11,690 bases of DNA from JBFLXN01 sp040755715 [NCBI: Candidatus Edwardsbacteria bacterium]. GTDB taxonomy: Bacteria; Edwardsbacteria; AC1; JBFLXN01. The stretch spans positions 1 through 11,690 of the forward strand of contig JBFLXN010000077.1 of the NCBI GenBank assembly GCA_040755715.1, in the 5' to 3' direction. This document shows positions 1 through 10,788 of this stretch, piece after piece (positions within the stretch are counted from its first letter, which is position 1; the number at the start of each line of letters is the position of its first letter). The notes below the pieces were generated by a model. The model searched no databases, was not told where the DNA came from, and was given only the letters and a program-made list of their open reading frames with translations. A program made the position numbers and the translations under genes.

Positions 1-108
1 GCTTGGGTCAGACAACGTAATCGTCAGAAAGCAACCGTTTCCTGGCAGTTTACAAAGAACATTGCTCGTAAGAAACTTAACAGGTTCTATTACAATATCA
101 AAAATTAG
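1..108 (+). CDS. IS630-like transposase, C-terminal fragment (5' end outside window)
   Basis: An open frame enters from the left edge and ends at TAG 106-108, giving 35 residues. They include the pattern W-x-x-x-R-N-R-x-x-A-T-V-S-W-Q-F-T, then I-A-R-K-K-L-N-R-F-Y. This resembles the usual end of IS630/Tc1-mariner-type DDE transposases, where a 'VNWQFTxxDARxKLxxLY' block closes the protein. Only the tail is visible, so the catalytic DDE residues cannot be checked and the copy may be intact or decayed. It is the only gene body on the plus strand and converges on atpK, with about 210 bases of repeat-rich DNA between them. I could not identify the terminal inverted repeat of the element with confidence. 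The assignment is by remembered family pattern. Confidence 0.6.
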   Translation, partial: AWVRQRNRQKATVSWQFTKNIARKKLNRFYYNIKN

Positions 109-148
109 TGTCACAGACCACTAGTTTTTCCTGAAAAAACCTCTGAAA

Positions 149-292
149 CCACAGATTACACAGAATAACACAGAAAAATAGAAATTCATAGAAATTTTGG
201 GAAACCTGTGGAAATTTATTGCTTTTTACTACAAGTTTCTATCAATTTCAATAAATTTCTATTAGTTTCCATATTTCTGTGGTAATCTGTGG
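149..292. repeat. Long imperfect palindrome of iterated words, downstream of atpK
   Basis: The outer arms are a perfect 11-bp inverted repeat: CCACAGATTAC at 149-159 against GTAATCTGTGG at 282-292. In the left arm CACAGA recurs at 150, 159 and 169, then ATAGAAATT recurs at 178 and 188. The right arm carries the reverse complements TCTGTG (276, 286) and AATTTCTAT-like words. The word period is about 9-10 bases on both sides. It fills the gap between the transposase fragment and atpK. Function is unknown. It could be a dispersed intergenic repeat or fold as a large hairpin at the end of the atpK transcript. Confidence 0.75.
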
Positions 293-299
293 CTAATGC

Positions 300-333
300 A
301 TTTTTCACCAATAACTATTCTATTTCACCAATA
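300..333. repeat. 20-base-period direct repeat overlapping the atpK stop
   Basis: TTTCACCAATA occurs at 303-313 and again at 323-333. The second copy lies inside the last codons of atpK (stop TAG at 320-322 on the minus strand), so the end of the protein is encoded by repeat DNA. The segment 300-318 also matches 11565-11583 (reverse strand) at 18 of 19 bases. Confidence 0.6.
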
Positions 334-664
334 CCAGAATCAAAATAGCAATGACGAAACCGAGTATAATCATAGTTTCTGGCAAAGCTTCCAATACAAT
401 CATTATTCCACTGGTTTCAGGCTTTTCAGCAATAGCTCCAGCAGCGGCTGAGCCAATCCTTGCCTGGGCAATTGCTGTAGCCAAGGCAGAAAGTCCCACA
501 GCTAAAGCTGCTCCAATCGCCTTTGCCCAAGGGAGAGCACTTTCGCCTTCTTTTGGAGCAGGCACCGCTCCAGTTTCCTCTTCATGAGTCTGAGCAAATA
601 GTAGAGGAGTAAAAAAGACTATCAGTAGAAAGACGGCTAAAAGAAGTAAGATTGGTTTTCTCAA
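320..664 (-). CDS. atpK: V/A-type ATP synthase subunit K (proteolipid c-ring subunit)
   Basis: This is the membrane rotor subunit of the V/A-type ATPase and carries the ion through the Vo/Ao sector. An N-terminal hydrophobic segment ending near F-A-Q looks like a cleavable signal peptide. An acidic, proline-containing linker follows, then a single two-helix hairpin. The loop between the helices is A-R-I-G-S-A-A-A-G-A-I-A-E-K-P-E. The second helix holds A-L-P-E-T, whose Glu is the expected ion-binding carboxylate. This layout is close to the Thermus-type proteolipid as I remember it. A Gln in helix 1 and the E-T pair are polar ligands, but they do not settle Na+ versus H+. Start: a GTG at 671-673 overlaps the SD core, so I prefer TTG at 662-664, eight bases after AGGAGG (114 residues). 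The gene follows atpI by about 70 bases in the same operon. Confidence 0.93.
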   Translation of the reverse strand: MRKPILLLLAVFLLIVFFTPLLFAQTHEEETGAVPAPKEGESALPWAKAIGAALAVGLSALATAIAQARIGSAAAGAIAEKPETSGIMIVLEALPETMIILGFVIAILILVLVK

Positions 665-672
665 TTTATTCA

Positions 673-678
673 CCTCCT
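673..678 (-). promoter_or_regulatory. atpK ribosome binding site that decides the start
   Basis: A perfect AGGAGG on the minus strand overlaps the possible GTG start at 671-673 and lies eight bases before TTG 662-664. Normal SD spacing therefore favours the TTG codon as the true start. Confidence 0.7.
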
Positions 679-735
679 TGTACTATAAATTGCACTGATA
701 ATTTCGACGATGTCGGGAATAACAGAATTTGTTAG

Positions 736-2697
736 TTATAGTTGGTCTATTTTTCTAAGTGGTTTATAAGGTTTTCCTGTCTGCTCATAAAATCTAAATT
801 TGGTAAAGAATTCTACATAGTGAAGACGAGCTGGTTGGACCACCGGGCTGATAATCCCTAAGAGAAAAAAGAGGAGATGACAGATGCTTGCTACTAATAT
901 TCCTCCTATCAAGGCAATAACATTTCCCCCCCCTGCAATTTGGTTGCCCAAAAGGTTGGCTACATAAGCTAAATACACGGCAGATAGTCCAATAGCAAAA
1001 AGACGAGCATAAGATAGAATATTTCCTACAGCAGAAAAAATTTCAATCGGACCGATGACGCCTTCAATAATTCCTAAGCCAATGAGTCCTATCACAAATA
1101 AACTACTGCCAACAATTTTTATCGCCGCCGGAAGGAGATTAGCTAAAGAAAATACAGCAGAAAACAGACCAATTAAACTAAAAATAAAGCAGAGGTAACT
1201 AACAATATGCTTTTTTTCTTGATGTTGCCAAGCGTTAATTAATCCAATAATAAATCCAAGAAAAACATGAACTATCCCGAATCCCAAAGCTACTGCCAAA
1301 GTCAGCAATATTTTAGCATCAGTGGTCATTCTATTAAGTAAAAGTGGATGAATAATTTGCAAGTGTTCGCCGAGGTCACCTAAGAACTCACCAAAAATAA
1401 TTCCAAAAAAGATTGTCCAGAGGGCGCATAAAAGGCAAATTCCGGAGACTGGCTTATTACTTTCTTTACTCTTGAATAACCAGCCAATGAATGTGCCAAT
1501 CAAAGAAAGTTTTGCTTTGCCTAATACTGGTAAAGAAAACAAGATAAGCATCAAGCCGTAGCCGATATCTCCAATAATGAAGCCGAAAAACATAGGGAAG
1601 AAAAGGGCAAAATATGGGGTGGGGTCTATTGTGCCATATTTCGGTGGCTGGAAAATCTGCAAAAATAATTCAAATGGCTTCCATAATTTTTTATTTTCTA
1701 AAAGCACTGGAATTCTTTTGGCTTCGTGTTCATCAAATGGAAGTTCTTCAATCACAATTTCTTCACCAAATTTTTCCTTGAGAGCAAGTTTTAAATCTGA
1801 CAATTTCTTGGTGGGCGCCCAGCCACAAACCAGAGAAGACAATTTTGTTTCGGAAAGTTCTGAAAGTGCTTTTAATCTTGCAAGCTGGTTGAGGAAAAAA
1901 TTTCTAACATTTTTTAAGTAGCCTCTATAATTTTGGGCTAATGCTTTGATTTCTTCATTTGAGTTTTTGATTTCTTCTGGCAATTCATTTTTTCTCTTTT
2001 GTAAGATTCTGACCGCTTCTTCTATTGGCAAATTCGCTACCTTAGCCGGAAGAGGCAGTTCATTCACTCCAGCTCTGGTGAAGAAATTTCGCACCTTTTC
2101 CGCATCTCGTCGATGGAAAGTAGCCAATACTCCTAACTTTTCCTCATCTACTTGACGAGTAACAAATTCAATTCTCCCCTCAGTCAATTTATGCAATTCA
2201 CTTTTTAATAGCTCAAAAGTAATCGGTGTTTTCTTTTTAATTATGAAGCCGAAGGTAGCCAGATTCTTTGAACTTTCTATCTGTGCCACTAAGGGGGCTA
2301 AAACTCGTACCGCTCCTTCATAAGCCAGAATTAGCTCTAATTCTTCTTCTTTTTCAATTCGCTCTTTAGTTAATCTTCGTAAGGGAATTTCTACTACATC
2401 AATTTCTTTTGAAATTTCCTCCAAAGACTTTTCTTGCAATTCAGATTCTTTGCTCTCTATTTTGGGCGGAAGAACTGAAGGCAAGAGTTCAAGCAGTCCA
2501 TCTATTCTTCCCAGTAATTTCTCAATGGCAGTCAGAAGAGTTGACTCTTCTGAGGTGGGTTTTACCTCAGCAAGTTTCTTACCCTTTTCTTGTAATTTAT
2601 CCAAATGTAAAAGTCCCAACCTTTGGATTTCGGTCAAAAGTTCTTTTAGCCTTTTTTTGGGACCAAAAATGGCTACCCGACTCATTTCTGCAATCAT
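736..2697 (-). CDS. atpI: V/A-type ATP synthase subunit I (a-subunit, stator)
   Basis: Subunit I is the membrane stator of the V/A-ATPase. It forms the ion half-channels against the K ring and anchors the peripheral stalks. The 653 residues match the family's usual size. Residues 1 to about 350 form the cytosolic arm, with helical and charged segments around 30-135 and 230-310. The membrane domain starts at the P-T-P-Y-F-A-L-F-F-P-M-F-F-G motif (359-372), and seven or eight hydrophobic helices run to about 620. The conserved S-Y-A-R-L motif places the putative channel arginine at R565. Q-P-A-R-L-H-Y-V-E-F-F-T-K-F (621-634) is the family's typical C-terminal signature. ATG 2695-2697 is preceded by AGGTG at a 5-base gap. 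The gene lies between atpH and atpK, the order expected of bacterial V/A-ATPase operons. Confidence 0.96.
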   Translation of the reverse strand: MIAEMSRVAIFGPKKRLKELLTEIQRLGLLHLDKLQEKGKKLAEVKPTSEESTLLTAIEKLLGRIDGLLELLPSVLPPKIESKESELQEKSLEEISKEIDVVEIPLRRLTKERIEKEEELELILAYEGAVRVLAPLVAQIESSKNLATFGFIIKKKTPITFELLKSELHKLTEGRIEFVTRQVDEEKLGVLATFHRRDAEKVRNFFTRAGVNELPLPAKVANLPIEEAVRILQKRKNELPEEIKNSNEEIKALAQNYRGYLKNVRNFFLNQLARLKALSELSETKLSSLVCGWAPTKKLSDLKLALKEKFGEEIVIEELPFDEHEAKRIPVLLENKKLWKPFELFLQIFQPPKYGTIDPTPYFALFFPMFFGFIIGDIGYGLMLILFSLPVLGKAKLSLIGTFIGWLFKSKESNKPVSGICLLCALWTIFFGIIFGEFLGDLGEHLQIIHPLLLNRMTTDAKILLTLAVALGFGIVHVFLGFIIGLINAWQHQEKKHIVSYLCFIFSLIGLFSAVFSLANLLPAAIKIVGSSLFVIGLIGLGIIEGVIGPIEIFSAVGNILSYARLFAIGLSAVYLAYVANLLGNQIAGGGNVIALIGGILVASICHLLFFLLGIISPVVQPARLHYVEFFTKFRFYEQTGKPYKPLRKIDQL

Positions 2698-2721
2698 CGC
2701 TACACCTATTTCAGTTTACCC

Positions 2722-2775
2722 GGTTTGTTAAGTTTACTCAGTTTATTGAGTTTAACCCAATAAACCAAATAAACC
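2722..2775. repeat. Iterated-word dyad between atpH and atpI
   Basis: The words GTTTA/TAAAC and TTTATTG/CAATAAA recur through this short gap. A perfect 7-bp inverted repeat pairs TTTATTG (2742-2748) with CAATAAA (2758-2764). An outer pair is GGTTT (2722-2726) and AAACC (2771-2775). The atpH stop (2776-2778) directly abuts it, and the atpI ribosome binding site (2703-2707) lies just beyond. In the mRNA it could form a hairpin between the two cistrons, which might adjust relative expression. That role is inference. Confidence 0.6.
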
Positions 2776-3102
2776 TTAAGAGATCGGTGGTAACACGCTT
2801 TTTAGAATATGTATTATTGCCTCTTGTTTTTTTCCTTCAAAATTCTTTTTTATTTTCTTTTGTTCTTCTTCTGCTTTTCTAAGAGTTTCCTCTTCAATTG
2901 TTTTCTCCTCTTGCATTTCTTTTTCTCGATAGATTTTATCTAATTGTCTTACTTCGTTTTCTGTCTCTTGTAACATCCTTCGTGCTTCTTGTTCAGCCTC
3001 TTTGATTATTTGGTTTGCTTGAGCACTGGTCTGCTCTAACATTTTTCCCAGTTCGGCTTCTTTCTGGGTAATTAAGTCAAGCACAGATTTATTTGAAGTC
3101 AT
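2776..3102 (-). CDS. atpH: V/A-type ATP synthase peripheral-stalk subunit H
   Basis: This is a small, almost wholly helical, highly charged protein (108 residues from the ATG). Long E/K/Q-rich heptad stretches occupy about residues 8-95, including K-E-A-E-Q-E-A-R-R-M and R-K-A-E-E-E-Q-K-K-I. That is the expected form of the H (G-type) subunit, which pairs with subunit E as a coiled-coil peripheral stalk linking subunit I to the catalytic head. Sequence alone cannot separate H from other stalk proteins, but its place directly before atpI matches the usual order. Start choice: the frame extends to a TTG at 3133-3135, but that stretch is a G/C homopolymer repeat with no usable SD. I therefore chose ATG 3100-3102, which has a weak GAAAG at a 5-base gap. 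Subunit E is not seen in the window. Confidence 0.85.
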   Translation of the reverse strand: MTSNKSVLDLITQKEAELGKMLEQTSAQANQIIKEAEQEARRMLQETENEVRQLDKIYREKEMQEEKTIEEETLRKAEEEQKKIKKNFEGKKQEAIIHILKSVLPPIS

Positions 3103-3112
3103 AGTATCTTTC

Positions 3113-3150
3113 AAAGCCCCCCTTCTCCCCTTCAATAAAGGGGGGGGAAA
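3113..3150. repeat. C-run/G-run hairpin upstream of atpH
   Basis: Two C-rich runs (3116-3121 and 3127-3130, each followed by TT) face a run of eight G (3141-3148) across AATA. Either C-run can pair with the G-run, so alternative hairpins are possible. The element spans the leader just before the atpH start. It looks like a dispersed low-complexity repeat. A translational effect on atpH is possible but not shown. Confidence 0.6.
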
Positions 3151-3226
3151 TTTAGAGAAGATTATTTTTTGTTATTTGTCTCCCGGCTTGTCGAGATGAG
3201 TGCTTCATTAAAGAAACTATTATGCT

Positions 3227-3610
3227 TTAGACATAAAGGCTTTTAGAGAATTCTTCAATTACTTTTTTCATTTGGAGGCGAGCCATACCAAGATTTCCTA
3301 CACTCGGTTGAAGTCCCACCCCGATGTAATAATCCCTTCCGACTGTCTTAAGAATCATCATTATTTTTTCAGTAATAAAAATAATTTCTTGAACATCTCC
3401 AACATTAAGATTGTTAGCGGCTCGATTAGCCGTAGTAAGCATTGTAGCAAATTCAGCATCAGCCACCGTGGGGTCCAGGGTAGGGTCAATATTATAGATG
3501 GCGATGCCAATTCCATCAGTACCGGTTAAGGAAGCTGAAAGTGCTCCTGGGATATTTTCTACCATTTCCTTTAAGCGGTGTTCATAGACATCACTTGTTC
3601 CATCAGGCAT
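3227..3610 (-). CDS. Roadblock/LC7 domain protein (MglB-like)
   Basis: This 127-residue protein consists of a single Roadblock/LC7 fold. It begins with a helix (Y-E-H-R-L-K-E-M-V-E-N-I-P-G-A-L-S-A-S-L), then the strand T-D-G-I-G-I-A-I-Y. A long helix follows (F-A-T-M-L-T-T-A-N-R-A-A-N-N-L), with two strands around I-I-F-I-T-E-K-I-M-M-I-L-K-T-V. It ends with Y-Y-I-G-V-G-L and a closing helix. In bacteria such proteins act as dimers, often as partners or activators of Ras-like MglA GTPases, but no GTPase gene is visible here. ATG 3608-3610 has the strong SD GGAGGAG. This SD is built from the last codons of the J-domain/TPR gene, whose TGA lies 3 bases before the ATG. The two genes are therefore probably translationally coupled. 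The specific function is unknown. Confidence 0.8.
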   Translation of the reverse strand: MPDGTSDVYEHRLKEMVENIPGALSASLTGTDGIGIAIYNIDPTLDPTVADAEFATMLTTANRAANNLNVGDVQEIIFITEKIMMILKTVGRDYYIGVGLQPSVGNLGMARLQMKKVIEEFSKSLYV

Positions 3611-3613
3611 AAT

Positions 3614-4261
3614 TCACTCTCCTCCCAAAAAACGGCTAAAGAATCCTTTTTTCGCTCCAAGTATTTGAAGTTTTTCTTTAGCCTGACGATTCTGAGGGTC
3701 CCATTTCAAGGCTTCTTGAAATTGAATTTTGGCTTTGTCCAATGCTTTAGCCTTTTCATAAATCAGACCCAGTGTTAAGTAATGCTGTGGGTTAAACATT
3801 TCCAGTTTAATAGCCTGCTCACAGTATGTTTCTGCCTCTTTGTATTTACCAATCATTCCCAAGGCCAGTCCTAATCTATTGTAAAACATAGCCTTCTGAG
3901 GATTAAATTTTATGGCCGCTCTAAAATATTCAATTGCTCTTCTATATTCAGCCCGCTTAAGTGCTTCTATTCCGTGGCCATAACTGGTTTCAGCTTGATT
4001 CATCTGTAAGGTTTTTTCGGGTGCCAACGTTCCAGTTTTATCACGAAGGATGCAGTCGTATTCACTTCGTTTCTTCCTATCAATCAATGTATGATAGGCT
4101 TCGTTTATTTCGTCAAATTGAACATTGGTCAGTTGCTTCTGTCCTTCAGTCTGGTAGTCGGGGTGATATTTTTTGGCTAACTGGCGATAGGCGGTTTTAA
4201 TTTCTTGTTCAGTGGCAAATCGGTCAACGCCTAAAATGGCATAATAATCTTTTATTGACAT
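3614..4261 (-). CDS. DnaJ-domain protein with C-terminal TPR repeats
   Basis: Residues 4-70 form a J-domain (D-Y-Y-A-I-L-G-V, and the diagnostic H-P-D at 33-35 in K-K-Y-H-P-D-Y), which stimulates the ATPase of a DnaK-type Hsp70. Residues about 91-191 form three TPR units with typical A-x-x-x-F/Y-x-x-A-I-x-x-x-P spacing, a protein-binding scaffold. There are no zinc-finger (CxxCxGxG) or Gly/Phe regions, so it is not DnaJ itself but a specialised co-chaperone. The end is basic and then Gly-rich (F-S-R-F-L-G-G-E). The frame extends upstream to a TTG (4280-4282), but ATG 4259-4261 directly precedes the J-domain and has an AAGGA, although only 3 bases away, so I chose the ATG (215 residues). It overlaps functionally with the next gene through the shared SD. 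The client protein is unknown. Confidence 0.88.
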   Translation of the reverse strand: MSIKDYYAILGVDRFATEQEIKTAYRQLAKKYHPDYQTEGQKQLTNVQFDEINEAYHTLIDRKKRSEYDCILRDKTGTLAPEKTLQMNQAETSYGHGIEALKRAEYRRAIEYFRAAIKFNPQKAMFYNRLGLALGMIGKYKEAETYCEQAIKLEMFNPQHYLTLGLIYEKAKALDKAKIQFQEALKWDPQNRQAKEKLQILGAKKGFFSRFLGGE

Positions 4262-4273
4262 AATTCCTTCGTT

Positions 4274-4384
4274 AAATATCAAAAATACAAATCAAAATTC
4301 AAAACTTTCAAAACTTTTTGGAGTGCGATGATATGTAGTTTTGATTTTTGCATCTTTATTTTTGATTTTTAATTTTTGATATTT
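4274..4384. repeat. AT-rich iterated-word palindrome between tRNA-Leu and the J-domain gene
   Basis: The outer arms are a perfect 13-bp inverted repeat: AAATATCAAAAAT (4274-4286) and ATTTTTGATATTT (4372-4384). Within the left arm, words of the form CAAAAAT, CAAATC and CAAAATTC follow each other about every 7-8 bases. The right arm holds their reverse complements (TTTTGATTTTTG, TTTTTGATTTTTAA). The centre (about 4305-4336) is unrelated sequence. It occupies the whole leader between the tRNA 3' end and the J-domain gene. No clear promoter can be separated from the repeat. Confidence 0.75.
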
Positions 4385-4393
4385 GATTTTTTA

Positions 4394-4478
<85 letters not shown>

Positions 4479-4525
4479 AAGATAAGCCTCACTTCGTTCG
4501 GGCAAATCCCAAATCCAAAGCACAA

Positions 4526-4550
4526 AACCTGTTCCTGACAGGTTCAGGAA
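4526..4550 (-). other. Two mutually exclusive 7-bp hairpins in the tRNA-Leu leader
   Basis: AACCTGT (4526-4532) pairs perfectly with ACAGGTT (4538-4544). TTCCTGA (4532-4538) pairs perfectly with TCAGGAA (4544-4550). The two stems share bases, so only one can form at a time. The site lies between the predicted start of the tRNA-Leu transcript and the tRNA 5' end, and also just downstream of the rng stop. It might be a processing or stop signal, or only an iterated repeat. No U-run follows, so I do not call it a terminator. Confidence 0.5.
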
Positions 4551-4581
4551 TACGGGCTCTGATTTACAATTTGCAGTAAGA

Positions 4582-4611
4582 ATTATATCAAAATTCACTT
4601 TGTTTTGTCAA
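4582..4611 (-). promoter_or_regulatory. Consensus sigma70 promoter for tRNA-Leu
   Basis: On the minus strand TTGACA (4606-4611) and TATAAT (4582-4587) are separated by 18 bases, with both hexamers matching consensus fully. The -35 lies within the last codons of rng and the -10 just after its stop. Transcription would start near 4575, giving a leader of about 97 bases before tRNA-Leu. A strong independent promoter suits a stable RNA gene. Confidence 0.75.
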
Positions 4612-6166
4612 CTTCAAAATTTGTCTCAGCAAAATAGACATGAAATTCTTCAAGGCTTAAGGAATGGTCATCCTGAATTTCTATCTTCAATCGCCAATCT
4701 TTACAAAGTTGATTGACAAACTCTGAATTTTCTTCTCTTAAATAATTCCCTAAACTCGGATGAACTCTAATCTCCAATTCCTTTCCTTTCAATTGTGCAC
4801 CAAATTTCCCGAACCAGCGTTCTATTTGCATGGTCATAGTTAATTTTGAGAGAACTCGCCCTGTTCCCTGACAAAAAGGACAATCTTCGGAAAAGGCATG
4901 CCATAAGCTGGGGCGAACCCTCTTTCGGGTCATTTCTACAATTCCTAATGGACTTATTTCTAAAACTTTCGGTCTGGCGCGGTCGTCTTTCAACATATTT
5001 TTCAATTCAGTCATTACCTTATTTTTGTTTTCCTCTTTTTCCATATCAATAAAATCAATGACGATAATTCCACCAATATCTCGCAATCGCAACTGTCTGG
5101 CAATTTCTCGACAAGCCGTCAAATTTGTTTTTAATACTGTTTCTTCAGGGTTTCTTTTCCCGGTATAGCGTCCAGTGTTAACATCAATAGCTACCAAAGC
5201 TTCTGTCTGGTCAATAGTAATATACCCACCTTTTTTCAACCAAACCTTACGTCCCAATGCTTTTTCAATTTGTTCTTCAATCTCGTAGGCTTCAAAAAGC
5301 GGTATTTCTTCCTGATATAGAAGCACCCGTGAACGCATTTCTGGAAAGATTGTTTTCAAATAATCAAGAATCTCTTTATAAGTTTTTTTAGAGTCAACGA
5401 TAATGCTTTCCACCTTTTCATTTAAAATGTCACGCAACATTCCTATCGTTATTTCTACCTCACGATAGATTAGAGCTGGAGCAAAAGTTTTTTTAGCTTT
5501 CTTTCTGATTTGCCGCCAGTGCTGTAAGAGAATTTTTAGGTCATTACGGAAGTCTTTTTTTTCTTTGCCCTCAGCAGCAGTCCGAATGATAGCCCCAAAG
5601 CCACAAGGCATCATTTCTGAAACAGTTTTACGCAACCGACGACGTTCAGATTGATCTTCAATCTTGCGTGAAATACCGATTCTATTTTCTTGTGGAATCA
5701 AGACTAAATAGCGACCGGCTAAAGAGAGATAAGCGGTCACTCGAGGACCTTTATCTCCAATTGATTCCTTAGAAATCTGGACTAAAATTTCCTGTCCCTC
5801 TTTGAGCATATCTTCAATTGATTCGGCACGAAATTTGGGACGGCCCGACGACTCCGATGAGGAAGAGACAGAGTGTCGGATTCTGTCTGAGCTAAAAGTT
5901 TCTTGTCCTAATTCGGTCGTATCTTCAAAATCTTTAGGGTCATAGGTAGTATCATCAAAATGAAGAAAGGCGCTTTTTTCCTGACCAATATCAATAAAAG
6001 CAGCTTGAAGACCTGGCTTAATTGTTTCTACTCTTCCTTTATAAATATCTCCGACGATACGCTTTTGTTGAGCACGTTCTACCCAAAGTTCCACTAAACG
6101 CATATCTTCTAAGATAGCAATCCTGGTTTCATTTTCCGTGGAGTTAATGAGAATTTGAGTGGACAT
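4595..6166 (-). CDS. rng: Ribonuclease E/G family endoribonuclease
   Basis: This endoribonuclease cleaves single-stranded, A/U-rich RNA and takes part in rRNA, tRNA and mRNA processing. Residues about 35-150 form the S1 RNA-binding domain (G-D-I-Y-K-G-R-V, G-L-Q-A-A-F-I-D-I-G). It is interrupted at about 75-113 by an acidic and serine-rich insert containing S-V-S-S-S-S-E-S-S-G. The DNase I-like catalytic domain has D328 in V-A-I-D-V-N-T-G and D371 in I-V-I-D-F-I-D-M. These are 43 residues apart, as are D303 and D346 of E. coli RNase E. The zinc-link C-P-F-C (C429, C432) is present, followed by G-T-G-R-V. The 523-residue length and the lack of a long disordered tail fit RNase G better than full-length RNase E. 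ATG 6164-6166 has no SD and the leader is AT-rich repeat. It lies downstream of coaX by 92 bases. Confidence 0.95.
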   Translation of the reverse strand: MSTQILINSTENETRIAILEDMRLVELWVERAQQKRIVGDIYKGRVETIKPGLQAAFIDIGQEKSAFLHFDDTTYDPKDFEDTTELGQETFSSDRIRHSVSSSSESSGRPKFRAESIEDMLKEGQEILVQISKESIGDKGPRVTAYLSLAGRYLVLIPQENRIGISRKIEDQSERRRLRKTVSEMMPCGFGAIIRTAAEGKEKKDFRNDLKILLQHWRQIRKKAKKTFAPALIYREVEITIGMLRDILNEKVESIIVDSKKTYKEILDYLKTIFPEMRSRVLLYQEEIPLFEAYEIEEQIEKALGRKVWLKKGGYITIDQTEALVAIDVNTGRYTGKRNPEETVLKTNLTACREIARQLRLRDIGGIIVIDFIDMEKEENKNKVMTELKNMLKDDRARPKVLEISPLGIVEMTRKRVRPSLWHAFSEDCPFCQGTGRVLSKLTMTMQIERWFGKFGAQLKGKELEIRVHPSLGNYLREENSEFVNQLCKDWRLKIEIQDDHSLSLEEFHVYFAETNFEVDKTK

Positions 6167-6170
6167 AATT

Positions 6171-6293
6171 ATAAATCAAATATCAAATATAAAAATGATA
6201 AACCGAAATCAGAAGTTTTCGTTTAATTGCTCTCTTTCAAATTTTAAATTTTGATATGTCATTTTGATATTTGATTTTTAATATTTGATTTAT
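6171..6293. repeat. Iterated-word palindrome between coaX and rng, extending into coaX
   Basis: Outer arms ATAAATCAAATAT (6171-6183) and ATATTTGATTTAT (6281-6293) are a perfect 13-bp inverted repeat. Further copies of ATCAAATAT and TTGATATTTGAT lie inside each arm. The centre (about 6200-6240) is unrelated. The right arm lies within the last codons of coaX, whose stop is 6259-6261, and the left arm lies next to the rng start. It is of the same type as the element at 4274-4384 but with a slightly different word. Confidence 0.75.
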
Positions 6294-7050
6294 TTTTAAG
6301 GTGGATTCGGCGTAAACCTTCCAAAGTCAAGAAACGATCTACTTTTTCAATCGTCTCTGAATCATTCGCTACTAAATAAGCTAAGCCACCAGTGGCAATA
6401 ACCCTTGTCTCTTCACCTAATTCCTGCCAGATGCGTTTGACGATTCCATCAATTTGTCCGATTGTTCCTAAAATAATTCCAGTTCTAAGACTTTCTTCAG
6501 TATTAGTGCCGATGATTTTGGTTGGCGGTGACAGTTCTATCTGATAGAGTTTTGCCGCTCTTCTGAAAAGTTCTTGAGAGGCAGTTAGCAAACCCGGTGC
6601 AATCACTCCGCCAAGGTATTCAGCATTTTTTGAAATTACATCAAAAGTAGTGGCCGTGCCCAAATCTACAATAATCAAGGGGCCACCATATATTTCAAAT
6701 CCGGCTACGGCATTGGCAATTCGGTCAGCACCAACTTGAGTAGGATTGTCATACATTATTTTTAAGCCGGTCTTAAGATGAGCTCCTACGATTAGAGGTT
6801 TCTTCTGTAAATATTGGAAAACCATTCGCTCAAAGACTGAAGTTAAGCGAGGCACTACCGAAGATAAAACCACATCTTTGATCTTTCGCCAATTGATTTT
6901 TGCTTCAGCCAATAAATGTTTGACCAATAAGCCACATTCATCAATGCTCAGGTTTTCAGGAGTAGTAATGCGGAAATGATGAACGAGTTTTTCACGGGAG
7001 TATATTCCCAAAACAATATTGGTATTACCGAGATCAATTACCAGTAGCAT
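6259..7050 (-). CDS. coaX: Type III pantothenate kinase
   Basis: CoaX phosphorylates pantothenate with ATP, the first step of coenzyme A synthesis, and is feedback-insensitive in the known family. It has the ASKHA-type P-loop I-D-L-G-N-T-N (residues 5-11). G-A-D-R (107-110) holds the expected catalytic aspartate D109. D-L-G-T-A-T-T-F-D-V (129-138), G-G-V-I-A-P-G-L (147-154) and A-T-G-G-L-A (219-224) complete the set. The usual family ending L-T-L-E-G-L-R-R-I appears at 241-249. A tail of about ten Asn/Lys/Ile/Ser residues follows (S-N-I-K-N-Q-I-S-K). It is encoded by the AT-rich intergenic repeat and probably has no enzymatic role. ATG 7048-7050 lacks an SD. The gene follows nadC by 57 bases, with a weak terminator-like hairpin between. 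Confidence 0.96.
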   Translation of the reverse strand: MLLVIDLGNTNIVLGIYSREKLVHHFRITTPENLSIDECGLLVKHLLAEAKINWRKIKDVVLSSVVPRLTSVFERMVFQYLQKKPLIVGAHLKTGLKIMYDNPTQVGADRIANAVAGFEIYGGPLIIVDLGTATTFDVISKNAEYLGGVIAPGLLTASQELFRRAAKLYQIELSPPTKIIGTNTEESLRTGIILGTIGQIDGIVKRIWQELGEETRVIATGGLAYLVANDSETIEKVDRFLTLEGLRRIHLKNKSNIKNQISK

Positions 7051-7058
7051 TTTTAAGC

Positions 7059-7093
7059 AAAAAATTTATGAAACCGCGTCCATCTGCAGTTTC
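7059..7093 (-). terminator. Weak terminator-like hairpin after nadC
   Basis: On the minus strand GAAACTGC pairs with GCGGTTTC (one G-U pair) around an 8-base loop. ATAAATTTTTT follows, ending in six T. The stem has few G-C pairs and the T-run is offset by five bases, so termination may be partial. It lies between the nadC stop and the coaX start. Confidence 0.4.
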
Positions 7094-7107
7094 AGTATGA
7101 TTTGAAC

Positions 7108-7977
7108 TTAATTCCCTAACTGTTTTAACCGAAGGCTAAAATCTAAAGCCGGAGCAGAATGGGTCAACATTCCGATGGAAATATAGTCAACTCCGGTTTC
7201 GGCAATGGCTCGGATATTCTCCAAATTGATTTTGCCGGAAGCTTCAAGAAATGGTTTCTTTATTCCCTCTAAGGTGACATTTTGAACCATCTTCACGGCT
7301 TCTTTAATCATCTCTACACTCATATTGTCTAACATAAGGCAGTCCACTCCTGCTTGTAGTGCCTCTTGAACTTCCGAAAGATTTTTAGTTTCTATTTCAA
7401 TAAAAAGTTGTCCTGTATCTGCAGATTTGATTTTTTTTACCGTTTCAGAAATTCCGCCGGCAATTTCAATATGGTTGCTCTTAATTAAAATCATATCATC
7501 TAATCCAAAGCGGTGGTTTTCTCCACCGCCAGTTCTGACGGCCGCTTTTTCTAAAAGACGCAATCCCGGCGTCGTCTTGCGGGTATCTAAAATTTTTGCC
7601 TTTGTTCCTTCAATTATAGTTACAAATTTGGCGGTGAAAGTGGCGATACCGGAAAGCCTTTGTAAAAAATTCAAGGCTACTCGTTCCCCTTTGAGAATAC
7701 TTAGAGCTTTACCTTGAATAGACAAAACAACATCTCCATAACCTATTTTTGTTCCATCAGAAGACTGAGGTTGAAGAATGAGCGTTTTGTCAATTGTCTG
7801 AAAAGTAGCTATAGCCACCTGGAGTCCAGCTAAGATTCCCTCTTCTTTGGCCATAATAATGCCTAAAGCTCTGGCTTTAGAGGAGACAGTCAAATTACTG
7901 GTAATGTCACCTTTACCAATGTCTTCTCGCAAAGCTCGTCTTATAAGTGGTCTGATTTTCTCTATTTCAAGAGACAT
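7108..7977 (-). CDS. nadC: Nicotinate-nucleotide pyrophosphorylase (quinolinate phosphoribosyltransferase)
   Basis: NadC converts quinolinate and PRPP to nicotinate mononucleotide, CO2 and PPi in de novo NAD synthesis, and works in the cytosol as a dimer or hexamer. The 289 residues are family-typical. The N-terminal sandwich domain includes R-E-D-I-G-K-G-D-I-T-S. The interdomain helix is G-E-R-V-A-L-N-F-L-Q-R-L-S-G-I-A-T (97-113). The barrel carries D-T-R-K-T-T-P-G-L-R (131-140), G-G-G-E-N-H-R-F-G-L-D-D (150-161), I-K-S-N-H, E-A-S-G-K-I (245-250) and I-S-I-G-M-L-T-H-S-A-P. These are the substrate and phosphate ligands of the family. No nadA or nadB is in view. ATG 7975-7977 has no SD. The upstream promoter predicts transcription starting at or next to the ATG, so translation may be leaderless. 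Confidence 0.97.
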   Translation of the reverse strand: MSLEIEKIRPLIRRALREDIGKGDITSNLTVSSKARALGIIMAKEEGILAGLQVAIATFQTIDKTLILQPQSSDGTKIGYGDVVLSIQGKALSILKGERVALNFLQRLSGIATFTAKFVTIIEGTKAKILDTRKTTPGLRLLEKAAVRTGGGENHRFGLDDMILIKSNHIEIAGGISETVKKIKSADTGQLFIEIETKNLSEVQEALQAGVDCLMLDNMSVEMIKEAVKMVQNVTLEGIKKPFLEASGKINLENIRAIAETGVDYISIGMLTHSAPALDFSLRLKQLGN

Positions 7978-7990
7978 AACAATATGTTAT
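7976..7990. promoter_or_regulatory. Operator-like dyad over the nadC start
   Basis: ATAACA-ATA-TGTTAT is a perfect 6-bp inverted repeat with a 3-base centre. It covers the nadC start codon and the predicted -10 element. A repressor binding there would block transcription initiation. No regulator gene is nearby, so the regulator is unknown, and a short AT-rich dyad can occur by chance. Confidence 0.35.
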
Positions 7991-8013
7991 CATAGTTTCC
8001 GGAGCAAAGTCAA
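7984..8013 (-). promoter_or_regulatory. Putative nadC promoter giving a leaderless mRNA
   Basis: On the minus strand TTGACT (8008-8013) and TAACAT (7984-7989) lie 18 bases apart. A start about seven bases after the -10 falls on the A of the nadC ATG. This agrees with the absence of an SD before that ATG. The -10 is only a 4 of 6 match. Confidence 0.45.
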
Positions 8014-8188
8014 GGGAAAAAGGAAAGGGCGCTTCTTTTACTTCAAACAAAAATCACGAAAAGCAGAGATGGAAAACGGATAATCTTCAGAACAATAATT
8101 ACAGGGATAAAATCAATTAACTACCTTCAGGAAATAATAAGGTCAACGAACAAAAGAGGCACACAATGGCAAGAGTAAGACCAAACAT
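8014..8188. other. Intergenic stretch between nadC promoter and groEL terminator
   Basis: I see no credible gene, repeat or RNA in these 175 bases. A short plus-strand ATG frame beginning at 8166 has a modest AGAGG before it, but it runs through the groEL terminator and codes for only about 34 unremarkable residues, so I do not call it. Confidence 0.5.
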
Positions 8189-8223
8189 AAAAAAGCCGGG
8201 CCTTTCTTTCAGAAGACCCGGCT
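8189..8223 (-). terminator. Intrinsic terminator of the groES-groEL operon
   Basis: On the minus strand AGCCGGG pairs perfectly with CCCGGCT around a 16-base loop (itself partly pairable through TCTTC and GAAAG), and a run of T directly follows. It lies about 90 bases after the groEL stop. This is the clearest terminator in the window. Confidence 0.9.
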
Positions 8224-8314
8224 ATTACCACCTTGTCAAAATTAGTTTGTTTTACAATTCAGTTTTTTAATTTCTTAATTTTTGGTTTCCCCCAAAGGTT
8301 AGAACTTCACCAAC

Positions 8315-9955
<1,641 letters not shown>

Positions 9956-9973
9956 TTAATAATTAATAATTGT

Positions 9974-10133
9974 AACCACGAATTGAACGAATTACACGAA
10001 TTATTATTCCGTTTTCAGCCTGAGGCTGATTCGTCTCCCGCCGACCTGTCCGTTGAGTCAAGATGCGAAGCCAACGGTCAGGAAGGCGAGGCTCGCCTCT
10101 GGCAGCTGGCGGAAATTCGAGTAATTCGTGGTT
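9974..10133. repeat. Branched palindromic element between groES and groEL
   Basis: The outer arms AACCACGAATT (9974-9984) and AATTCGTGGTT (10123-10133) pair perfectly over 11 bp. ACGAATT recurs at 9978, 9987 and 9996, an exact 9-base period, and AATTCG recurs at 10114 and 10123, also 9 bases apart. Inside lies a GC-rich core with nested stems. CCGCC (10038-10042) pairs with GGCGG (10108-10112). CCTGTCCGTTG (10045-10055) pairs with CAACGGTCAGG (10072-10082) with one T-T mismatch. Two side hairpins are CAGCC/GGCTG (10016-10028) and AGGCGAG/CTCGCCT (10084-10098). The groESL mRNA contains it, so it could fold as a multi-branched RNA between the cistrons. Whether it is a mobile element or functional RNA is unknown. 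Confidence 0.8.
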
Positions 10134-10143
10134 GCATTTGCAA

Positions 10144-10437
10144 TTAGGTTTTTTCAATAATAGATAGAATGTCATCGGCATGCATAATCAGATAGTCCTC
10201 ATCATCTATCTTGACTTCTGTGCCGGAATATTTTCCGTAGAGAACTCGGTCTCCTGCCTTTACTTCCATAGCAATTCGTGTTCCATTGTCGGCAATTTTA
10301 CCCGGCCCAACAGCAATCACCTCTCCTTCTTGCGGTTTCTCTTTGGCGGTGTCGGGAATGATAATTCCCCCTTTTTTCTTTTCTTCGGGCTCCAACGGCT
10401 TTACTACTACCCGGTCACCTAAAGGTTTAATCTTCAT
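10144..10437 (-). CDS. groES: Co-chaperonin GroES (Hsp10)
   Basis: GroES is the heptameric lid of the GroEL chamber. The 97 residues are full length: [11 protein letters not shown], then the flexible mobile loop ([19 protein letters not shown]) whose G-G-I-I-I segment docks on Gro[27 protein letters not shown] and D-D-I-L-S-I-I follow. ATG 10435-10437 has an extended SD, AGGAGGGAGG, just upstream. It is the first gene of the groESL operon, under the promoter at 10570-10598. Its leader of about 125 bases carries a dyad repeat. Confidence 0.98.
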
Positions 10438-10449
10438 AAACCTCCCTCC

Positions 10450-10537
10450 TTATAGTTGATAATTGATGGTTAATAGTTGATGGTTGATAGTTTTTTTTGC
10501 TATAGACAACTATAGACTATAAACTATCAATTATAAA
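10450..10537. repeat. Iterated-word dyad in the groES leader
   Basis: TTGATAGTTT (10484-10493) and AAACTATCAA (10521-10530) form a perfect 10-bp inverted repeat around 27 bases, in which CTATAG occurs twice. The left side is a run of TAGTTGAT / ATTGATGG / TAGTTGATGG words with a period of about 7-8 bases. It lies between the predicted transcription start (about 10563) and the groES SD (10441-10450), so the transcript should carry a hairpin close to the ribosome site. A role in heat control is only speculation. Confidence 0.7.
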
Positions 10538-10569
10538 CCCTCTGCCATTTTCCGTAATTTCAACATATA

Positions 10570-10598
10570 ATTATAACAAATTTTTTCTAAAAATGCAA
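10570..10598 (-). promoter_or_regulatory. Sigma70-type promoter of groES-groEL
   Basis: On the minus strand TTGCAT (10593-10598) and TATAAT (10570-10575) are spaced by exactly 17 bases, so the -10 is perfect and the -35 a good match. The predicted start near 10563 gives a leader of about 125 bases to groES. No CIRCE inverted repeat and no obvious heat-shock sigma32-type promoter are seen nearby. Confidence 0.75.
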
Positions 10599-10756
10599 GA
10601 GGTAAATAAAGATTTTCACAAAAATTTGAACTTTTTGCTTAAAAATGAACCACTTATACTATTATATAACATAATGAAAAACAACGAGTTAAATAAAAAA
10701 GTTAAATAAAATGATTCATTCTGCGGTTTATACTCTAGGCATTATGTTTTTTTGCC
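10599..10756. other. AT-rich gap between the groES promoter and phoU
   Basis: This stretch holds no coding frame that I can support. GTTAAATAAAA occurs twice in tandem near 10688-10711, and GGCA/TGCC can pair weakly around 10738-10756. No convincing terminator for phoU is visible. Confidence 0.4.
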
Positions 10757-10788
10757 TTTAGCAAGGATTTAGCACATAGCGTTTAGCA
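10757..10788. repeat. Three direct TTTAGCA words across the phoU stop
   Basis: TTTAGCA occurs at 10757-10763, 10768-10774 and 10782-10788 (TGCTAAA on the phoU strand). The last copy supplies the final Cys codon and TAA stop of phoU. The spacing is 11 and 14 bases. It resembles the other word-iterated intergenic elements but has no visible inverted partner. Confidence 0.5.

Follow-up and report, generated by a model that had tools for sequence, protein, structure and literature searches.

Word-iterated palindromes in the intergenic gaps of an Edwardsbacteria contig, with indications from other genomes of their copying and internal change

We have analysed a DNA stretch of 11,690 nucleotides (nt), here called the window, which is contig JBFLXN010000077.1 of a Candidatus Edwardsbacteria bacterium, with regard to palindromes in the gaps between its genes. 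The minus strand of the window carries V-type ATPase genes, a DnaJ-TPR gene, a tRNA-Leu gene, RNase E/G, coaX, nadC, groEL (identified by its sequence), groES and phoU, together with a roadblock-like gene whose Pfam score is below the cut-off. A plus-strand open reading frame (ORF) that ends at position 107 (window 1-107; 35 residues with no Pfam match) resembles the C-terminus of IS630-family transposases. Six features in or at the gaps, designated Elements A to F, are palindromes whose arms consist of an iterated short word. In our view these 6 features belong to a class of short (~60-170 nt), heterogeneous palindromes that resemble miniature inverted-repeat transposable elements (MITEs), that are copied between sites and that have their arms remade internally; our rough probability for this reading is 0.6.

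Six palindromes with word-iterated arms

The 12 gaps defined by the ORF and tRNA tables were each compared with 400 dinucleotide-preserving shuffles, using an inverted-repeat score and a word-period score (lags 6-12). In 4 of the gaps, 108-319, 2698-2775, 4262-4393 and 9941-10143, which hold Elements A, B, C and E, respectively, both scores exceeded those of all 400 shuffles. For the 345-nt groES leader (10438-10782), which holds Element F, the period score exceeded all 400 shuffles; the inverted-repeat score over the full 345 nt was equalled by 38/400, and a 160-nt segment around the element gave an inverted-repeat z of 6.3. The weakest case was gap 6167-6300 (Element D), where 17/400 shuffles reached the inverted-repeat score and 4/400 the period score. 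By the same test the remaining 6 gaps were not of the word-palindrome kind, and 40 coding segments analysed as a control gave mean z values of -0.13 and 0.21 (maxima 2.10 and 2.23). The original prediction had placed imperfect palindromes in 5 named gaps and in the groES leader, and had proposed a check of all intergenic regions of the genome against shuffled controls. Within the 12 gaps of the window, these palindromes are real by comparison with shuffles, less clearly so for 6167-6300, and 4 of the gaps exceed every shuffle on both scores; the accompanying statement that "most" gaps hold them is to be corrected to 6/12.

We also folded each element and counted, among 200 shuffles, those that folded at least as well as the real sequence. 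Three gaps without a feature served for comparison, and gave counts of 15, 38 and 49. The coordinates given below, for which no strand is assigned, are concordant with an inverted-repeat listing and with Tandem Repeats Finder, and a sliding detector for word-iterated inverted repeats recovered 4 of the 6 elements, missing those at 6166-6298 and 9968-10139.

Element A (149-297) is located between the end of the plus-strand ORF at 107 and an atpK-like gene. It consists of outer arms of CCACAGATTA and CACAGAATAA words, with a period of 10, and an inner TAGAAATT palindrome that appears by eye to be nested within CACAGA arms; the arms at 159-217 and 233-291 are 75% complementary, and no shuffle folded as well as the segment 150-297 (0/200). 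Element B (2711-2775; GTTTATTGA words, period 9) occupies most of the gap between an ATPase G-like gene and the subunit I gene, and its fold was equalled by 4/200 shuffles. Element C (4272-4390), between the DnaJ-TPR gene and tRNA-Leu, is composed of TTTTGAT and ATCAAAA heptamers and includes inverted repeats I6, I9 and I12; Tandem Repeats Finder reported TTTTGAT at 4339-4391 with a period of 7 and 7.6 copies, and the fold of 4262-4393 was matched by 0/200 shuffles. Element D (6166-6298), which overlaps the coaX ORF at its 3' end (stop codon at 6259), contains TTTGATA and ATCAAAT heptamers and inverted repeats I2 and I5, with TTTGATA reported by Tandem Repeats Finder at 6250-6289; 1/200 shuffles folded as well. 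Element E (9968-10139) lies in the groEL-groES gap. Its outer arms, 9968-9993 and 10114-10139, are 81% complementary and carry ACGAATT words (CCACGAATTGAACGAATTACACGAATT), and a G+C-rich palindromic segment appears by eye to be nested between them; its fold (9966-10141) was matched by 0/200 shuffles. Element F (10452-10540), in the groES leader, has TTGATAG and TTGATGG heptamers with a period of 7, arms at 10455-10486 and 10507-10538 that are 81% complementary, and a fold that 0/200 shuffles matched (z -6.9). In the aggregate, the period is 7 in Elements C, D and F and 9-10 in Elements A, B and E. Several different words are indeed present, as had been noted, but the claim that every gap has its own word is too strong, since the TTTTGAT of Element C and the TTTGATA of Element D are close heptamers.

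There were 2 further palindromes in the window that are of other kinds. One, around CCTGTTCCTGACAGGTTCAGGAA in gap 4479-4594, was reached by 1/400 shuffles (period 8/400) and is not word-iterated. The other, a CCCCCC...GGGGGG palindrome at 3116-3150, resembles by eye a G-run palindrome (locus L060, near 4260) of genome G009, described below; the gap in which it lies scored no better than shuffles.

Architecture and words in other genomes

Searches with RNase G and GroEL gave distant relatives and nothing closer, with GroEL reaching 73% at most among 22 genome entries. The sliding detector was applied to 43 loci (690,282 bases) from distant protein relatives, and it returned 4 matches, of which 3 were convincing (L015, L018 and L022) and one, L026, with a period of 12, was doubtful; shuffled versions of the 43 loci gave 0 matches. 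The genome behind L018, a Thermodesulfovibrionia metagenome-assembled genome designated G009, was picked because it carries a word of the window, CCACAGATTACACAGA, which occurs there 14 times and 0 times in 17 other genomes of the same search. Across 938,947 bases sampled from G009 we observed 77 detector matches (~8 per 100 kb), 55 of them with a period of 7, and their words include AAAAATC, ACGAGTG, ACGCAGT, ACAGCGT and AATCTGTGT. The shuffled control for this genome covers the first 340,167 of these bases, in which a slightly laxer threshold gave 32 matches in the real DNA vs 0 in the shuffled DNA. Densities per 100 kb in other genomes (85-99 kb each) were 6.1 for G029, 4.7 for G268, 2.3 for G013 and 0 for G002, the stretches from G029 and G268 having been sampled around genes for Y1 tyrosine transposases. 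Elements of a CCCTC type are present in G009, G057 and G268.

Identical words are found in distant lineages. We used CCACRRATTACACRRA, a joint 16-mer pattern with 2 RR positions, with the backwards pattern as control. It occurs in 16/295 genomes of the phylum of G009 (57 matches vs 5 backwards), in 10/148 genomes of the phylum-level group of G024 (49 matches, 32 of them in one genome, vs 0) and in 6/150 genomes of the phylum-level group of G012 (18 matches vs 1). A few single matches seem by eye to be coding (L080, L093) and are probably due to chance, but are kept in these counts, and copies inside one genome are not independent of each other. The distribution over the 3 groups is patchy and often multi-copy, and 3/4 genomes of G009's own family have no match. 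In 104 of the 119 listed places the 2 RR positions are concordant. The variant at these positions agreed in 0.91 of within-genome pairs (mean of the 11 genomes with at least 3 places) vs 0.41 of pairs between genomes, with G298 (0.47) and G184 (0.60) as exceptions to one dominant variant per genome.

In contigs of a viral catalogue, 2 18-mers were found in 30 and 26 stretches, respectively, and the reversed form of the first in 1, this control covering the first word; several of the stretches share one contig or lie on near-identical contigs, and the contigs may carry host DNA. The 18-mer with 26 stretches is of the word type of Element E. One catalogue entry, IMGVR_UViG_3300037264_001851 (L256, L259), has 11 listed matches to CCACAGATTACACAGATT in 2 possibly overlapping stretches. 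A higher-order tandem array was seen in G405 (contigs C465 and C525), where CCACGAATTACACGAA recurs at exact 30-base steps, as 4 copies in C465 and as 3 plus a more distant one in C525.

The number of exact 14-mers shared with a 2.5 Mb pool was 46 for Element A, 181 for Element C and 90 for Element D, vs maxima of 18, 40 and 42 in 20 shuffles; the value for Element A is favoured by selection because the pool includes G009. The original prediction had remarked that similar words seemed familiar from other uncultured bacteria. This suspicion proved sound for CACAGA and ACGAATT, by the joint 16-mer pattern and the viral 18-mers, and for the AT-rich heptamers of 2 gaps, by the shared 14-mers; no such sharing was shown for TTTATTG and TTGATAG.

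Movement, nesting and change within the arms

Several observations from other genomes point to movement of such elements. G009 contains 8 copies of one nested unit, with an identity of 98% or more over as much as 105 nt, and the 5 copies for which upstream DNA is available start at an identical base and have differing flanks; other copies in this genome have in common only a ATCCACAG...GTGGAT core and lie in unrelated flanks. At locus L101 of G298, which holds 3 elements, one of these is absent from the orthologous gap of G325, where 11 nt replace its 166 nt; the junction was compared by eye, and the flanking gene is 79% identical in the 2 genomes. The second gap of this locus, inspected by eye in 9 genomes, holds 4 different fillings or none: a nested CACAGAG/CACAGATT element in G298, CACGAATT in G328, CGCGGATT in G325 and a GGAATCC hairpin in G188, with unrelated longer DNA in G326 and short gaps lacking an element in G327, G324, G278 and G239.

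Nesting was seen repeatedly. At L101, CACAGAG outer arms surround a CACAGATT palindrome in 2 elements and an AAGTGAG palindrome in the third, as judged by eye. Off-centre nesting also occurs, as in L094, where a G+C hairpin lies within one arm; central nesting is favoured by our detector.

Two cases involve genes. In G325 (L302, G325:C22, 1142-3248) a DarT-Macro toxin-antitoxin pair (PF14487, PF01661) is located between 2 direct copies of ~82 nt of a CGCGGATT palindrome, and the arrangement looks as if the repeat had served recombination. The second case concerns 2 viral-catalogue contigs, L283 and L284, that are 98.1% identical over ~10 kb aligned and that carry different in-frame word arrays in one slot of their portal gene (ORFs at 12165-14678, minus strand, and 112-2616, plus strand, respectively). 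The flanks of the slot are 96.3% identical over 600 nt and 90.7% identical over 140 nt, and 2 pieces of the L283 slot, one of 53 nt (98%) and one of 26 nt (100%), recur elsewhere in both contigs. A second site of the portal gene likewise differs, and an array of shared type is present at the C-terminus; a search for further relatives of this gene returned the same 2 contigs alone.

The arms themselves appear to change in steps. In 87 arms from the 55 period-7 matches of G009, the match at a distance of 1, 2, 3 and 4 words was 0.54, 0.49, 0.44 and 0.36, respectively, vs 0.29-0.34 off period, and the decay persisted (0.58, 0.54, 0.48, 0.40) in 58 arms chosen on lag 14; p-values for this decay are optimistic because related elements do not contribute independent arms. 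If the words had mutated independently around one consensus, the profile would be flat, and we therefore take the decay to indicate stepwise duplication of neighbouring words.

Such stepwise change is also what would be expected if each palindrome had been created locally, by a polymerase that slips and, on folding back at a small hairpin present by chance, adds new copies of the local word to each arm, in which case the words would differ from gap to gap because the seeds differ. The many different words within G009, the words of Element A, which by eye morph from the outside inward, and the slot at which closely related contigs hold different arrays are likewise compatible with this account. 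As the only origin of the elements, however, it is inadequate, because identical 16-18-mers occur in different phylum-level groups, and it is also at odds with the uniformity of the word variant within genomes, with the near-identical dispersed units and with the recurrence elsewhere of the pieces in the L283 slot. We regard purely local creation as a possible but unlikely explanation. The original prediction had left the choice between a local process and a set of related elements; the latter is better supported, through the dispersed near-identical copies, the empty orthologous site and the single dominant variant of multi-copy genomes, and the former leaves its mark too.

Relation to known repeats and origin of the elements

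With MITEs the elements share their size, inverted ends, want of coding capacity and nesting, and in other genomes also dispersed copies and an empty site. All 6 have inverted ends and are shorter than ~600 nt, and ORFs called over them look spurious in our judgement. They differ from MITEs in that their arms are word-iterated; by eye we saw no target duplication, and we found no parent transposon. No transposon with the same ends turned up at the Y1 loci examined, where inverted repeats were of other kinds or not found; IS110 was assessed by presence in genomes.

The short tandemly repeated repetitive (STRR) heptamers of cyanobacteria are direct tandem arrays in intergenic DNA and are not known to have an inverted arm. 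The window elements are not arrays of this direct kind, or of that of the TAACTGA heptamers: Elements C, D and F have a period of 7, but their arms are inverted. The TAACTGA heptamers of Beggiatoaceae, Cyanobacteria and Bacteroidetes also form intergenic arrays, some of them split by a related heptamer, and have a patchy distribution across phyla for which horizontal spread has been suggested; they differ in that a single word forms direct repeats (one of the 169 sets is inverted), which mostly lie just upstream of start codons (PMC4679880). The boxC or intrastrand-triplex motif repeats, present in more than 260 genomes, resemble the window elements more closely in design, being short, intergenic and dispersed, with one word (CCCTCNCCC) both inverted and in tandem; that word is a single fixed G+C word capable of forming a triplex, whereas the words in the window are A+T-rich (PMC4666352). 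For the boxC pattern CCCTCNCCC...GGGNGAGGG...GGGNGAGGG we searched the plus strand of the 6 elements, and found no CCCTCNCCC.

Repetitive extragenic palindromes (REPs), with the REPINs and BIMEs and their RAYT transposases, are likewise dispersed intergenic palindromes, mosaic in structure and patchy among species. In the available part of that account, they measure 20-40 bp, have stems mostly of 6-9 bp and bear a GTAG or CGTC tag, all of which is unlike the window elements, and word-iterated arms are not described for them (PMC3733652). A tag at a palindrome end is absent from the window elements: GTAG/CTAC occurs once in Element A (229) and once in Element C (4335), and CGTC once in Element E (10032), each time internally. 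Nor was RAYT adjacency found here.

We nevertheless considered the possibility that the elements are REP-like and are mobilised by trans-acting Y1 tyrosine transposases, of RAYT or TIRYT type, which came under suspicion because one copy adjoins a Y1-like reading frame (L083, by eye). A Y1 gene is present in 15/16 word-bearing genomes of G009's phylum vs 174/279 of the others (p = 0.007, phylogeny not corrected), and outright dismissal is not warranted in view of this association. Against it, 30 Y1 loci gave 4 relaxed detector matches, with a clear word palindrome at L129 alone; Y1-rich genomes gave 1 match in 270 kb vs 3 in 280 kb of genomes without Y1; and G057, which has no Y1, still has period-7 arrays. 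Moreover, inverted repeats of other kinds are present at 17/30 Y1 loci. At 12 of these (L109, L114-L116, L119, L126-L128 and L131-L134) they are GGGGTCA-like, 2 with a base off, and resemble the TIRtron motif GGGGWSAS of PMC3733652. Little adjacency, no effect on density and the presence of other inverted repeats at many Y1 genes led us to reject RAYT/TIRYT as sole driver, and the Y1 transposases are a doubtful candidate for the mover. Neither reverse transcriptase (6/16 word-bearing vs 100/279 genomes) nor IS110 (3/16 vs 111/279) was in excess.

A role as RNA hairpins, that is, as terminators or mRNA stabilisers under selection at the transcript level, is suggested by the location of all 6 elements in or at gaps, by their strong folds and by their gene context in G009. 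By simple ORF calls, 55 of the 77 matches in that genome lie in gaps, 17 overlap an ORF call and 5 are at stretch ends, and 48/55 gap elements vs 365/495 gaps are between co-directional genes (p = 0.012); divergent gaps hold 3/55 (p = 0.058 by gap count, 0.004 by bases). Yet convergent gaps were not enriched (4/55 elements vs 65/495 gaps), and arm mismatches read on the coding strand showed no bias (G-T 81 vs A-C 88, p = 0.64), so that there is no sign of the hairpin having been kept as RNA. Rfam, at the gathering threshold, matched the tRNA alone in the window, and selection on transcripts does not explain the shared words. We judge this role to be very improbable. That AT-rich intergenic DNA merely looks repetitive by chance is refuted for 5 of the 6 elements by the shuffle tests and has next to no standing, in spite of the weak inverted repeat of Element D, given the matches in real vs shuffled G009 DNA and the existence of G+C-rich words of the same design.

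These comparisons are consistent with our reading of Elements A to F as MITE-like palindromes copied between sites and remade within. Arms made of an iterated 7-10-nt word would reach new gaps and genomes when existing elements are copied, for which the support (dispersed copies, an empty site, shared words, nesting and mosaics) comes from other genomes. In place, the arms would gain and lose single word copies, possibly through slippage and fold-back template switching at the hairpin, with the result that neighbouring words are most alike. The elements would persist mainly in co-directional gaps, where they are probably tolerated, with no sign of a role as RNA structure.

Several points weigh against this reading. 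The direct evidence for movement is from other organisms and concerns mainly CACAGA, CACGAATT and CACAGAG words; Elements B, E and F showed no 14-mer excess against the same 2.5 Mb pool. The density in G009 is atypical because that genome was selected for its word, some of its matches are boxC-like or doubtful, and 17/77 overlap ORF calls; 40 further genomes gave 4 matches in 550 kb, at least one of them doubtful, with 5 of the stretches read as masked. Several G009 copies are at contig ends, as is usual for repeats in assemblies, so that double counting of a copy is possible, and the empty site is a single locus in relatives that are ~79% identical. By eye, with no systematic test, neither the G298/G325 junction nor the G009 copies show a target-site duplication, and no autonomous partner was found.

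The feature itself is real and widespread, and is best filed with the small dispersed intergenic palindromes, among which it looks like a class that has been poorly described. We found no description of variable-word iterated palindromes as a class among the titles and abstracts that our searches of open-licence PubMed Central literature listed, and a search of that literature with the letters of the words themselves returned nothing on the subject by title. As a tentative extension, one could imagine that a single undescribed copying system, common to bacterial phyla and phages, makes and spreads all of these word palindromes; its enzyme would copy 7-10-nt words stepwise from array to array, would land on existing hairpins (hence the nesting) and would rewrite intergenic and coding slots over short times. 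This we hold to be unlikely at present.

If the elements are indeed copied and remade, a visible share of the intergenic DNA of some uncultured bacteria would belong to one architectural class that annotation has overlooked, with words common to phyla and to viral-catalogue DNA. The repeats would then provide ready-made homologies for gene exchange, as in the DarT-Macro case, and would supply in-frame protein linkers, as in the phage portal case. They would also pose a testable question, namely what it is that copies a 7-nt word.

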